48,630 bases of DNA from Alphaproteobacteria bacterium (GTDB lineage Bacteria > Pseudomonadota > Alphaproteobacteria > Elsterales > Elsteraceae). The stretch spans positions 1 through 48,630 of the forward strand of contig JAAFIC010000013.1 of assembly GCA_013298565.1 (NCBI GenBank). Reading direction: 5' to 3'. Shown here one piece after another: positions 1,420 to 9,574 of this stretch. The notes beneath the pieces were generated by a model. It searched no databases, was not told the DNA's origin, and was given only the letters and a program-made list of their open reading frames with translations. The position numbers were made by a program, and so were the translations under genes. Within the stretch, counting starts at the first letter, position 1, and every line of letters begins with the position of its first letter.

Positions 1420-1971
1420 TTACGCGGCTTTCCGCTTCGCGCTGCGGTTTTTCACCGAGCGCGCTTTCAAGGCGCGTGCCCCGAAAGGGCGAACCGGCCC
1501 TTCGACGCCTGCTAAGGCCTGCGGCAGGATGCCGCGCACGTAGAGCCGTTCGGTTTTTTCGCCCGGCATGGTGATGCCCGTGGGGGCAGCGGCGGTGAAG
1601 TTGAACTTGCCATAGAACTCGGCCAAATCGCTGACCAGCACGATGATCTGGTGGCCGTGGGCCGCGCAGGCAGCGAGGGTAACGTCCATCAAATCGGCAC
1701 CGACACCTAAGCCGCGATAGGTGTCATCGACGGCGAGCGGGCCAAGCAGCAGCGCTGGCGTGGCGTTCGGGCCGATTTCGACTGGCCAGTAGCGCAGCGT
1801 GCCGATAACCGTATCGCCCTCTTTCGCCACATAGCAGAGCGGGCCAACCGGGGCCACGCGGTCGCGGAAGCGATAGGAGGTTTTCTGGCTGCGCGCCGTA
1901 CCGAAAACCCGGTCGAGCAGGTGTTCAATCGCGTCTGAATCGTGCGGTTGTTCTTGAGTGAAAGTCACCAT
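1420..1971 (-). CDS. GNAT-family N-acetyltransferase (YhbS-like)
   Basis: A 183-residue protein, MVTFTQEQPHDSDAIEHLLD at the start. The acetyl-CoA-binding motif A is visible as LLGPLAVDDTYRGLGVGADLM (about residues 90-110), followed by motif B-like HQIIVLVSDLAEFYGKFNF. This pattern (LGPLAVxxxxRGxGIGxxL and GDxxYYxxFGF) matches COG3153 YhbS-type acetyltransferases; the acceptor substrate is unknown. The C-terminus has a basic Lys/Arg-rich tail (KARSVKNRSAKRKAA) not needed for catalysis. The ATG at 1971 is chosen because an AGGA ribosome-binding sequence precedes it; the frame remains open further upstream, but that stretch is hairpin-rich and does not resemble protein. Confidence 0.85.
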   Translation of the reverse strand: MVTFTQEQPHDSDAIEHLLDRVFGTARSQKTSYRFRDRVAPVGPLCYVAKEGDTVIGTLRYWPVEIGPNATPALLLGPLAVDDTYRGLGVGADLMDVTLAACAAHGHQIIVLVSDLAEFYGKFNFTAAAPTGITMPGEKTERLYVRGILPQALAGVEGPVRPFGARALKARSVKNRSAKRKAA

Positions 1972-2258: not shown

Positions 2259-2442
2259 TGCCGAAACTGCATCAGGCTTAGGGCTGCGCCCCACAGGCTG
2301 AAAGCGTCATTCACAGAAAGGCTGCCAATATCGGCGTGGTTCAGATCTTCCAGCAGAACCAAGCGACCCTGTCCTGGGGGGAGGGCTTCTAACAGGCTTT
2401 CGCTTTCGGTGTAAGGGATCACCGCATCATAACCGCTATGCA
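2259..2442 (-). pseudogene. Displaced 3' end of the alpha/beta-hydrolase gene (repeat copy A)
   Basis: These 184 bp match positions 3398-3581, the last 61 codons of the hydrolase gene, with about 11 mismatches counted by eye (near 94% identity) and no gaps. The fragment keeps the reading frame (DAVIPYTESESLLEALPPGQ onward) and runs on into RHITG before a stop. Most differences are synonymous: only R to G in HS(R/G)YD and MS to VN in SL(MS/VN)D change residues. The fragment has no start region and is not expected to be expressed usefully. It marks the far edge of the AT-rich island. Confidence 0.85.
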
Positions 2443-2597
2443 ACGCTCATATATTGAGTCTATGAACCATCGCATCAGTTTGCATAGCACCAGAGCGTAA
2501 ATAACCTTGATTAATGCGTTATGTAGCGCCATTTTCACTGAGTGGGGTGCTGTTAGTGTTAGCCGATACAAAAGAGCTTACACCGGAGGTTGTCACT

Positions 2598-2852
2598 ATG
2601 AATTTATATAAAAATACTAACAAACATAAGTTTGCTGGCGTTAACATGTCCAAATTTAGTATATTTATGGACTATGTTGATGGTTATGCGCATGCATTTA
2701 TAATGTTTCCGCAAGAAAAATCTGAGAAAATACATAATTATGAGTTAGGGGATTTGGATGATGATTTGAAGTCCTTGGCGTCGGATTGTGATGAAGTGAT
2801 GAACGTTGTAAATAAGTATTTTTCAAGGGCTTATTTTGTAAAAAACATCTAA
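2598..2852 (+). CDS. Small hypothetical protein of the AT-rich island
   Basis: An 84-residue protein starting MNLYKNTNKHKFAGVNMSKF, not recognised. The start at 2598 is supported by a good GGAGG sequence about 10 bp upstream; the longer frame from 2514 lacks one. It has a mixed alpha/beta look, with an aromatic stretch (FSIFMDYVDGYAHAFIMF) and an acidic segment (ELGDLDDDLKSLASDCDE), and no clear signal peptide or membrane helix. Base composition is distinctly AT-rich compared with surrounding genes, which suggests recent acquisition. It is followed after 18 bp by the DUF2335 gene on the same strand, probably as one transcript. Confidence 0.6.
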   Translation: MNLYKNTNKHKFAGVNMSKFSIFMDYVDGYAHAFIMFPQEKSEKIHNYELGDLDDDLKSLASDCDEVMNVVNKYFSRAYFVKNI

Positions 2853-2870
2853 TAAATAAGGATTGTATTT

Positions 2871-3383
2871 ATGTCTGATGAGAATGATTTGTCTGTGCCC
2901 AAGGTTGATGAAAATCAGATTGAAGGGTCTGGTCTAAGTAATGATGCTCTCAGTGATCGTGGGATCACTCCTGAAATATTAGAGGGTCGTATTGCAAGGA
3001 CATTTACTAAGAGTGTTGCTCTATCGCGTAGCCCATATCCCTCCCCTGAGATGCTTAGCGCATATGCAGAATTTCGACCGGACTTCCCTAATCATATTAT
3101 AGCAAAAATAGATGAAGAAACGGAACATCGCTGAAAAATCAATTTTAAGATTGTTGATGGGGAAGAGGGTAGACGGGATAATAAGGAAAAGCGCAAAGAC
3201 AGAGCACAATATATTGCTCTGGCTATAGCGGTTAGTGGTATTATTCTTTCTCCAGGAATGTACCTATATACAGGTAATTGGGTATTTCCCACCATATTTT
3301 TGGCAATTACGGTAGGTGGACCTCCTGCCGCATTGTTGGCTCTGAGTTTTCTCAACCGCAAAAACAGTCAAGACAGTGAATAA
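2871..3383 (+). pseudogene. DUF2335-family membrane protein gene interrupted by an in-frame TGA
   Basis: The frame starting at ATG 2871 (AAGGA about 10 bp upstream) encodes 87 residues ending in EETEHR and then TGA at 3132-3134. The same frame continues without another stop to TAA at 3381-3383 and encodes the rest of a DUF2335 protein: a basic linker (GRRDNKEKRKDRAQ), two hydrophobic segments (YIALAIAVSGIILSPGMYL and FPTIFLAITVGG) and a short tail. The typical family layout is SPYPSPEML...YAEFRPDFPNHII...EHR, then linker, then two membrane helices, all seen here. A CGA to TGA change would explain the stop. It is either a one-mutation pseudogene or a readthrough case; DUF2335 function is not known and genes are often on phages and plasmids. 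Confidence 0.7.
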
Positions 3384-3393
3384 AATAGGGACG

Positions 3394-4521
3394 TTATTGC
3401 CGAAACTGCATCAGGCTTAGGGCCGCGCCCCACAGGCTGAAAGCGTCGCTCATGGATAGGCTGCCAATGTCGGCGTGGTTCAGATCTTCCAGCAGAACCA
3501 AGCGGCCCTGTCCTGGGGGGAGGGCTTCCAACAGGCTTTCGCTTTCGGTGTAAGGGATTACCGCATCATAACGGCTATGCACTAGGGTCACGCGCGCGGC
3601 AAGGGCAGAGAGGTCAAGATCAACGAGGCTAAGGGCAGAAATCGCACCCCGGATTGGGGCGGGCAGGGCCGCGATAAGCTCGCTAACAGCATCGGGATCA
3701 TCCGTTCGCACCAGCGCATAGAGGGCCTTGCCCTGCAGCCCTAAGCCTTGCGCCAGATCGTCCAAGGGCGCGCTGGGATCGTTTAGGCGGCGCTCCGCCA
3801 TAATCGCCAGCAAACCCCGGTCGTTGGCATCCTCCAGCCGCCCGAGATTGGCCTGGAGAAATACCCATACCGAACGCGGGTTGGGCGGTTGAAACTGCCA
3901 CGTATCATCAAAGCGCCCGCGATAGGCCCCGGTGATGAAAAAACGGATCACGGCTTCCGAATCGTAAAAACCGCCCAGCGCGAAAATCCCCTGCACATCG
4001 GCGCTCACGTCCGGCTCCAGCGCGGCGCGGATCGAGGGCACGAGGCTGTAGGAAACTGCGCCAATGCCCACCGCGCGCGCCGACGGGTCGATCCTATCCG
4101 TCGCCACCCGCACCGCATCGGCAATGGCGCGGGCGTGGTCCGGCAGCACGTGGAAGCGCTCTATGCCGGGTAGGTCCGGCACGATGACGCGAAAGCCGAC
4201 TTCCGCCAAAATCCGCGCCATAAGCTGCAAGCGCGCATCATCGCGCCCTGCTCTCGCGGCCCCTGGCACGAGGATCAGGCTGGCACGCTCCCACCCATCC
4301 TGCCTTAGCCAGATGTCGCCATCGCGCGTGCGACCATCAATCGTCCACTGTGTGCGATTGGTCGTGATAGCAGGGGCGAAGGGCAGCGGCGCTTTATTCG
4401 ACAGCAGCGAGACGATGACCCAGAGCGCTGCGCCGGTTCCCGCTGGCGTTAGCGCCCAGCCAAGGCCCCCCACCCCTAGCAGTAGCGCGAAGGTGAGGAG
4501 CAAGCGCCGCAGAAATTTCAT
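3394..4521 (-). CDS. Membrane-anchored alpha/beta-hydrolase-like protein
   Basis: A 375-residue protein beginning MKFLRRLLLTFALLLGVGGL, a probable N-terminal membrane anchor or signal. The body has alpha/beta-hydrolase features: LILVPGAARAGRDDARLQL (oxyanion region), a nucleophile-elbow-like GIGAVSYSLVPS, an acid in HSRYDAVIPYTES and a His in LLEDLNHADIG. The elbow is not a canonical GxSxG, so activity is uncertain. The start is set by a 4-bp ATGA overlap with the upstream nicotinate phosphoribosyltransferase gene, which implies translational coupling. The last 61 codons are duplicated at 2259-2442 across an AT-rich island, so this 3' end may have been supplied by an inserted element. Substrate unknown. 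Confidence 0.78.
   Translation of the reverse strand: MKFLRRLLLTFALLLGVGGLGWALTPAGTGAALWVIVSLLSNKAPLPFAPAITTNRTQWTIDGRTRDGDIWLRQDGWERASLILVPGAARAGRDDARLQLMARILAEVGFRVIVPDLPGIERFHVLPDHARAIADAVRVATDRIDPSARAVGIGAVSYSLVPSIRAALEPDVSADVQGIFALGGFYDSEAVIRFFITGAYRGRFDDTWQFQPPNPRSVWVFLQANLGRLEDANDRGLLAIMAERRLNDPSAPLDDLAQGLGLQGKALYALVRTDDPDAVSELIAALPAPIRGAISALSLVDLDLSALAARVTLVHSRYDAVIPYTESESLLEALPPGQGRLVLLEDLNHADIGSLSMSDAFSLWGAALSLMQFRQ
3398..3581 (-). repeat. 184-bp direct repeat, copy B (3' end of intact hydrolase gene)
   Basis: The counterpart of 2259-2442, same length and orientation, bracketing 955 bp of AT-rich DNA. The repeat ends at the last codon just before the stop on one side and at GCTATGCA (3574-3581) on the other. 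The match stops abruptly at both edges. Confidence 0.88.
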
Positions 4522-8368: not shown

Positions 8369-9010
8369 CTAACCGAGCGCTACTCCATAATGATCCAAAA
8401 TAGAGCCGATAAGAGTTTCATCATGGAGTAAGTCAAAAGTATTTTTTATCGATAGACCCGCGGCTGTTCTATCAAAAAAAGCATAGCAGATTTCACTGTT
8501 ATCGTGATTAGCCATGTAGGCAATGCCGTCTGCCTGTTGAGGATGGTCGTGCAGGGCTTTCGCCCAAGGTTGCGATACATTGTAGTTGCCCGACGTGACG
8601 GCAGCGGTTGCTCCGAGTTGGGCCAGGCCATTCCCGTACAATTTGATGAAAGACAAGGGGCGATCATTGGTCAAGATCGAATAGTCACGCTCTTGCAAAT
8701 AAGAAGTTGAAACTAGGCTAATGCCAACCTCGCGCAGGCAAGTTTCAGCAAAGGCTCCTTTTAAGTCATGCGCCGTGTAGCAAACCCCAAACTGTCGTGT
8801 TGGATCATCAAATCTATAAATCGCCTCACGTCCGAAATAGAGCGGCGCGTAATTTCGTTGATGGATGCGAAAAAATTCAGATCCCGCCACGACACTATCG
8901 ATCGGCAAATTCCGCTGATCGAGGTCGGCAGGCGGCGCTGGGGGTAGAGTGTTAGGCGGCACCTTGAGAACCAAAGGCCCGCGCTGCCCTAACAACCGCC
9001 TCAATTTCAC
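8369..9010 (-). CDS. RES-domain toxin (NAD+-degrading type)
   Basis: A protein of up to 213 residues with the RES domain: FFRIHQRNYAPLYFG (conserved Arg and Tyr), RFDDPTRQFGVCYTAHDLKGAFAETCLRE (conserved Glu), and a C-terminal part with ISxxY-like SEICYAFFDR. RES toxins cleave or phosphorolyse NAD+ and are paired with Xre/MbcA/ParS-type antitoxins, as here. The frame start (GTG 9010) overlaps the antitoxin gene by 59 bp; GTG at 8962 would nearly remove the overlap and still keep the whole domain, so the exact start is uncertain. GC content is lower than neighbouring genes, which fits horizontal acquisition. Confidence 0.85.
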   Translation of the reverse strand: MKLRRLLGQRGPLVLKVPPNTLPPAPPADLDQRNLPIDSVVAGSEFFRIHQRNYAPLYFGREAIYRFDDPTRQFGVCYTAHDLKGAFAETCLREVGISLVSTSYLQERDYSILTNDRPLSFIKLYGNGLAQLGATAAVTSGNYNVSQPWAKALHDHPQQADGIAYMANHDNSEICYAFFDRTAAGLSIKNTFDLLHDETLIGSILDHYGVALG

Positions 9011-9416
9011 CGCGCTTCAGAACGCTGAGAGGGGTTTCTTGATTAAGCCTGAAATCTCCCGTCAGCATAAAATTTATCTGCATCCACGGGTCATCAACCT
9101 CTAAGGCGGAAAGGACAGCATATATTCCTTGAAGCAATCCGCCTTCAGTCAGTTGGAATTTTGGATAGACGATCTTACCGTTCGGCTTCATCCAAAACAG
9201 CTTATTCTCAGTACGCCATCGATAGACTGTGGGCGGAGAAACACTTAAGCGTTCCGCCATTTCATAAGATGTCAGCGTGCCACCGCACGCCCCTAAAATT
9301 TGTTCTTTTGCACGCTTCCCACGCGCAAAAGCCGCCGCAAGCGGTGAGTCGGGTTTGCTCGTGCCGGGTTGCGAATGCCGTTTGGGCGCGTTCCCGTAAG
9401 CGAAGGTGGCAACCAT
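8952..9416 (-). CDS. Antitoxin of the RES module (HTH plus MbcA/ParS-like toxin-binding domain)
   Basis: A 154-residue protein. A helix-turn-helix is visible at TLTSYEMAERLSVSPPTVYR (about residues 47-66), which is closer to a MerR/Xre-type DNA-binding helix pair. The C-terminal part, MLTGDFRLNQETPLSVLKRG then EIEAVVRAARAFG, matches the toxin-binding domain (DUF2384/MbcA-ParS-Xre) of RES antitoxins. It precedes and overlaps the RES gene and both are probably repressed by this protein. The start at 9416 (MVATFAYGN) is the only reasonable ATG. Confidence 0.82.
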   Translation of the reverse strand: MVATFAYGNAPKRHSQPGTSKPDSPLAAAFARGKRAKEQILGACGGTLTSYEMAERLSVSPPTVYRWRTENKLFWMKPNGKIVYPKFQLTEGGLLQGIYAVLSALEVDDPWMQINFMLTGDFRLNQETPLSVLKRGEIEAVVRAARAFGSQGAA

Positions 9417-9499: not shown

Positions 9500-9574
9500 T
9501 GGTGCCGGCTGCAGGATTTGAACCCGCGACCTTCGGTTTACAAAACCGCTGCACTACCACTGTGCTAAGCCGGC
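9500..9574 (-). tRNA. tRNA-Thr (anticodon UGU)
   Basis: The reverse strand folds as a cloverleaf: acceptor GCCGGCT/AGCCGGC, D-arm with GCAC/GTGC, anticodon loop TTTGTAA (anticodon TGT), T-arm with GGTTCAAATCC, discriminator A and an encoded CCA (9500-9502). The anticodon stem has a G27-A43 mismatch. It reads ACA codons. Confidence 0.93.

Follow-up and report, generated by a model that had tools for sequence, protein, structure and literature searches.

The window analyzed here, a stretch of 48,630 nucleotides of contig JAAFIC010000013.1, contains an AT-rich island of 955 bp between two copies of the 3' end of an alpha/beta-hydrolase-like gene, an arrangement probably left behind by a mobile element that had integrated through a gene-restoring attachment site. 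On this reading, the hydrolase gene of a related species would have contributed 184 bp of its 3' end to a circular element, and recombination between the circle and the gene would have taken place close to where this segment begins (TGCATAGC in gene orientation). The gene body would thereby have acquired the 3' end carried by the element (copy B), along with a stop codon from the element, and the native one (copy A) would have been pushed to the far side. The integrase and most of the other content would then have been lost, leaving the present 955 bp with a broken phage-type membrane-protein gene and an orphan open reading frame (ORF). In this reconstruction the insertion would have been made by a site-specific recombinase, probably a tyrosine integrase, and the element would formerly have been mobile and larger.

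The repeat pair, the gene end, and the empty sites

A repeat search recovered positions 2259 to 2442 (copy A) and 3398 to 3581 (copy B), both on the minus strand, as an ungapped repeat of 184 nt with 94.0% identity, a match that cannot be the product of chance. An earlier note on this DNA had given the same coordinates, equal length, lack of gaps, and identity of about 94%, all of which were reproduced exactly, and its estimates of about 11 base differences and about three residue changes were also right. Base-by-base comparison of the copies gave 11 mismatches in 10 codons, 7 of them synonymous and 3 nonsynonymous (8 silent and 3 replacement differences when counted by site), with the residue changes G/R, V/M, and N/S.

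The hydrolase-like gene (3394 to 4521, minus strand; 375 aa) encodes a protein with weak matches to the Hydrolase_4 and RutD models and with 86% and 78% identity to the products of single-copy genes in two congeners. Copy B and the island now provide its last 61 codons and its stop. Copy B, in frame at the gene end, has gene body on one side and island on the other and is most likely the element-borne arm of the attachment site. Copy A is an ORF fragment that reaches a stop at 2246; its upstream neighbor in gene orientation is island DNA, and its downstream flank is native, being conserved in both congeners (TATCACAGGATAAAATACTGCCACTTGACGCC here matches GATCACAGGATAAAATACTGCCACTTGACGCC in Elstera litoralis). 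Because the downstream flank of copy A matches the congeners and copy B ends in island sequence, copy A is taken to be the displaced native 3' end.

The earlier note had the repeat match ending one base before the stop codon of the hydrolase gene, which is correct as to position, but the stop now in use, a TAA, belongs to the island and the native end lies three codons later. The present gene ends in FRQ*, in place of the native end that reads FRHITG* in copy A and FRQITG* in E. litoralis, and the stop codon in use therefore comes from the island. A repeat whose end lies beside the stop codon is what gene restoration requires.

The source genome (3.02 Mb in 126 contigs) was compared with those of the two congeners, one of which is E. 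litoralis Dia-1 (NZ_LAJY01000078.1). Both congeners have a single 3' end and lack the island, and the flanks of the hydrolase locus are collinear with both of them on either side; the window therefore carries a clean insertion of 1,139 bp (955 + 184) at the 3' end of the hydrolase gene. The alignment of relatives proposed in the earlier note thus yielded empty sites in two of two congeners, and no genome has the duplication while lacking the island, an arrangement that the note had regarded as contrary to its interpretation. The hydrolase was also searched for across 385 genomes of the class; 28 of them have a relative, and a displaced 3' fragment of the same kind turned up in no second genome. 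A short match in one genome, G285, had no integrase-like neighbor by eye.

The next native gene, encoding a GNAT acetyltransferase (1420 to 1971, minus strand), lies in a flank conserved in the congeners and is left intact by the insertion, as is its upstream region. That region includes a short GTG-start ORF on the minus strand (1972 to 2205; VTQVSTLQRRREDG...TLLP*), whose LQRRR stretch and TLLP end are common to all three Elstera genomes. The leader containing this ORF is predicted to fold strongly and had no Rfam match; together, the ORF and leader suggest a leader-peptide attenuator. Farther along the minus strand, positions 704 to 1320 hold a ParE-type toxin gene (PF05016, E 4e-15) and an upstream partner ORF, and the segment from 697 to 1413 that holds the ParE-type gene aligns to neither congener. 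On the same strand, two adjacent ORFs at 8369 to 9416 resemble, by eye, a putative RES-domain toxin and antitoxin; this pair adjoins a tRNA-Thr gene (9500 to 9574).

Island content

The island (2443 to 3397) has a GC content of 38.5%, compared with 59.6% for the window, of which it is the most AT-rich 955-bp stretch, and it is foreign in base composition. It is present once in its own genome, and the other genomes compared within the family lack it. Two ORFs lie on its plus strand. The first (2598 to 2852, 84 codons) is an orphan, with no family match and no relative in the 384 other genomes of the class or in viral contigs. The second (2871 to 3383) is a DUF2335/phrog_3996 membrane-protein gene whose reading frame is broken by a TGA at 3132 to 3134. 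With the TGA read through, the match to phrog_3996 spans residues 47 to 169 (E 4.5e-15) and both halves are collinear; taken by halves, the first matches at E 4e-8 and the second weakly, at E 0.12, again in collinear order. The match to Pfam DUF2335 (PF10097) is weak and below the cut-off (E 0.0015). PHROGs assigns this family to the category of moron genes, and relatives of the gene also sit in chromosomal neighborhoods without obvious phage genes.

The earlier note had described the island as carrying no integrase. Consistent with this description, no integrase, excisionase, relaxase, or conjugation gene was recognized in Pfam and PHROGs searches of the two island ORFs and inspection of the other frames by eye, and neither ORF matches defense models. 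Because no integrase was recognized, the island is filed as a remnant and not as an autonomous element of the e14/icd type. A leftover is favored over a complete small passenger because the only recognizable gene of the island has an in-frame stop. No free or full-length element and no attP was found in viral contigs searched by 3'-end peptides and by the DNA core pattern, and a search of phages and plasmids with the region likewise found neither.

The contrary proposal, that the island is a complete integrase-less element of ~1.1 kb that depends for its movement on an integrase supplied in trans, in the manner of a satellite or cis-mobilizable element, is unlikely. Both junctions do look intact, and the host genome has nine matches to the tyrosine-recombinase family. 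However, an in-frame stop breaks the sole recognizable gene, neither the same genome nor its relatives contain another copy, and the 22-bp site, allowing up to 5 mismatches, is absent from the regions retrieved around the genome's own integrases. It is likewise improbable that the island is a mini-element of ~1.1 kb without a recombinase, with its own gene-restoring site and a two-gene cargo, that would use an integrase in trans to move between Elstera species.

Junctions and divergence of the two gene ends

The homology of the repeat starts with TGCATAGC (3581 to 3574 and 2442 to 2435, minus strand), and the copies first differ at base 9. These identical 8-bp starts of copy B, at the gene-side junction (3574 to 3581), and of copy A, at the far junction where gene homology stops and the island begins (2435 to 2442), are the candidate crossover segments, and the crossover that produced the proposed remnant would have occurred in or adjoining them. 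A crossover close to the 5' repeat edge would leave this layout, although one at the 3' edge would produce an identical sequence. We infer that the 5' edge is the crossover side because a crossover at the 3' edge would leave the element no reason to carry the end of the gene. Counting against the reading preferred here, the copies share no more than 8 bp of unbroken identity at the crossover end. The junction also holds a 6-1-6 palindrome (CATAGC C GCTATG in E. litoralis); as a possible pair of recombinase arms, it was rejected for being too short.

The same two-copy layout would be expected from homologous (Campbell-type) integration, with no integrase, of a DNA circle carrying a gene fragment from a related species. 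A length of 184 bp at ~94% identity could suffice for homologous recombination, and the failure to recognize an integrase fits such a route. It would nevertheless leave to coincidence both the position of the repeat end, about a dozen bases from the native stop, and the immediate in-frame stop supplied by the island, and the layout matches the known site-specific case in detail; integration of this kind is accordingly regarded as quite improbable.

Over its final 184 bp, the hydrolase gene has an identity of 0.92 to E. litoralis, compared with 0.80 for the rest of the gene, and this 3' segment is clearly more conserved than the gene remainder in all three pairwise Elstera comparisons. Because of this higher conservation between species, the event was dated by the synonymous rates of the repeat segment and not by raw identity. 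Between copies A and B, dN is 0.022 and dS is 0.214 (NG86), giving a dN/dS of ~0.1, and dS to E. litoralis is 0.278 for copy A and 0.216 for copy B; these rates are rough, as they come from a small sample of 184 bp. Closeness to E. litoralis was of no help as a guide to the history of the copies, with about equal distances of 14 and 13 differences for the two copies.

The earlier note had held that both copies diverged while coding and had suggested comparing their dN/dS, with a mostly nonsynonymous set of changes as evidence to the contrary. The low dN relative to dS supports that claim, as 8 of the 11 differing sites are silent and a single replacement is clearly derived in copy A. The probability of at least 8 silent differences among 11 without coding constraint is 0.0009 to 0.005, depending on the transition bias. 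If copy A had been a noncoding relic since the split of A from B, ~11 to 15 replacement changes would be expected, compared with the one clearly derived when polarity is set with the two congeners (P about 7e-6 to 1.5e-4). Since dS between the copies is close to dS to E. litoralis, at a dN/dS of ~0.1, the copies diverged as coding sequence before the insertion and are about as old as the species split. The near absence of replacement decay in copy A indicates that copy B most likely evolved as part of a functional gene elsewhere and reached this site later.

Duplication of the 3' end in place, followed by insertion of unrelated DNA between the copies, would need no mobile element with a copy of its own. 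It is very hard to reconcile with copies that are about as far apart as species when the outside copy is almost undecayed, and neither congener shows the duplication without the island. The least credible explanation is an assembly artifact joining two strains, which might be suspected in an assembly of 126 contigs but would require both island junctions to be false in a contig collinear with both congeners on either side.

Comparison with known systems

A decayed element with a gene-restoring site is of a kind already known from e14/icd, from gene-restoring islands, and from cis-mobilizable elements (CIMEs) (PMC5704250); what is particular to this case is the genus in which it occurs, the gene that it targets, and its very small size. 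In the best-known example, e14 supplies the 3' end of icd and the native end is displaced (PMC6379469); 12 polymorphisms are reported, 11-bp direct repeats form the recombination site, and e14 is known to excise (PMC4759930). A control measured again in E. coli MG1655 agrees with these accounts, with an icd/icdC repeat of 165 bp and 12 differences (10 silent and 2 not), in which 11 identical bases precede the first mismatch, at base 12. The hydrolase locus shares with e14/icd an element-supplied 3' end, a native end displaced as a pseudogene fragment, a repeat of similar length (165 bp versus 184 bp here) with mostly silent differences (12 versus 11), and a short run of perfect identity at the 5' repeat edge (11 bp in icd/icdC versus 8 bp here). 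In contrast, e14 is 15.2 kb long with intE, xisE, and phage genes, whereas the insertion here is 1.1 kb with no integrase recognized; the hydrolase target is unrelated to icd, and the island supplies a stop three codons early. Of the features expected of a gene-restoring element, the empty site, the displaced native end, and coding-constrained divergence are present, and no integrase was recognized. The interpretation in the manner of e14/icd put forward in the earlier note is supported by the empty sites, the dN/dS of ~0.1, and the same anatomy in the icd control.

CIMEs are decayed integrative and conjugative or mobilizable elements (ICEs/IMEs) that keep attL and attR (PMC5704250). Like them, the island has kept flanking att-like repeats, whose att role is proposed from their layout, has no recognized recombination genes, and lies at a gene 3' end. 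It differs in that no ICE/IME ancestry is demonstrable (a search for an ICE/IME-related element found none), the only recognizable gene is phage associated, and there is no tandem partner element. It also resembles grounded (defective) prophage remnants (PMC6379469) as a small decayed insert with a phage-type gene and a gene-restoring site. In contrast to such remnants, it has no structural or replication phage gene left, and for this reason a phage origin of the island is only suggested.

The insertion is otherwise a piece of ordinary bacterial genome history. With it, the 3' end of a hydrolase gene in Elstera is added to the protein genes that serve as restoring attachment sites. The locus also indicates that a gene-restoring site can be recognized after its machinery has gone, through the silent differences between two gene ends, and this pattern offers a simple route to decayed elements that are missed by integrase-based scans.
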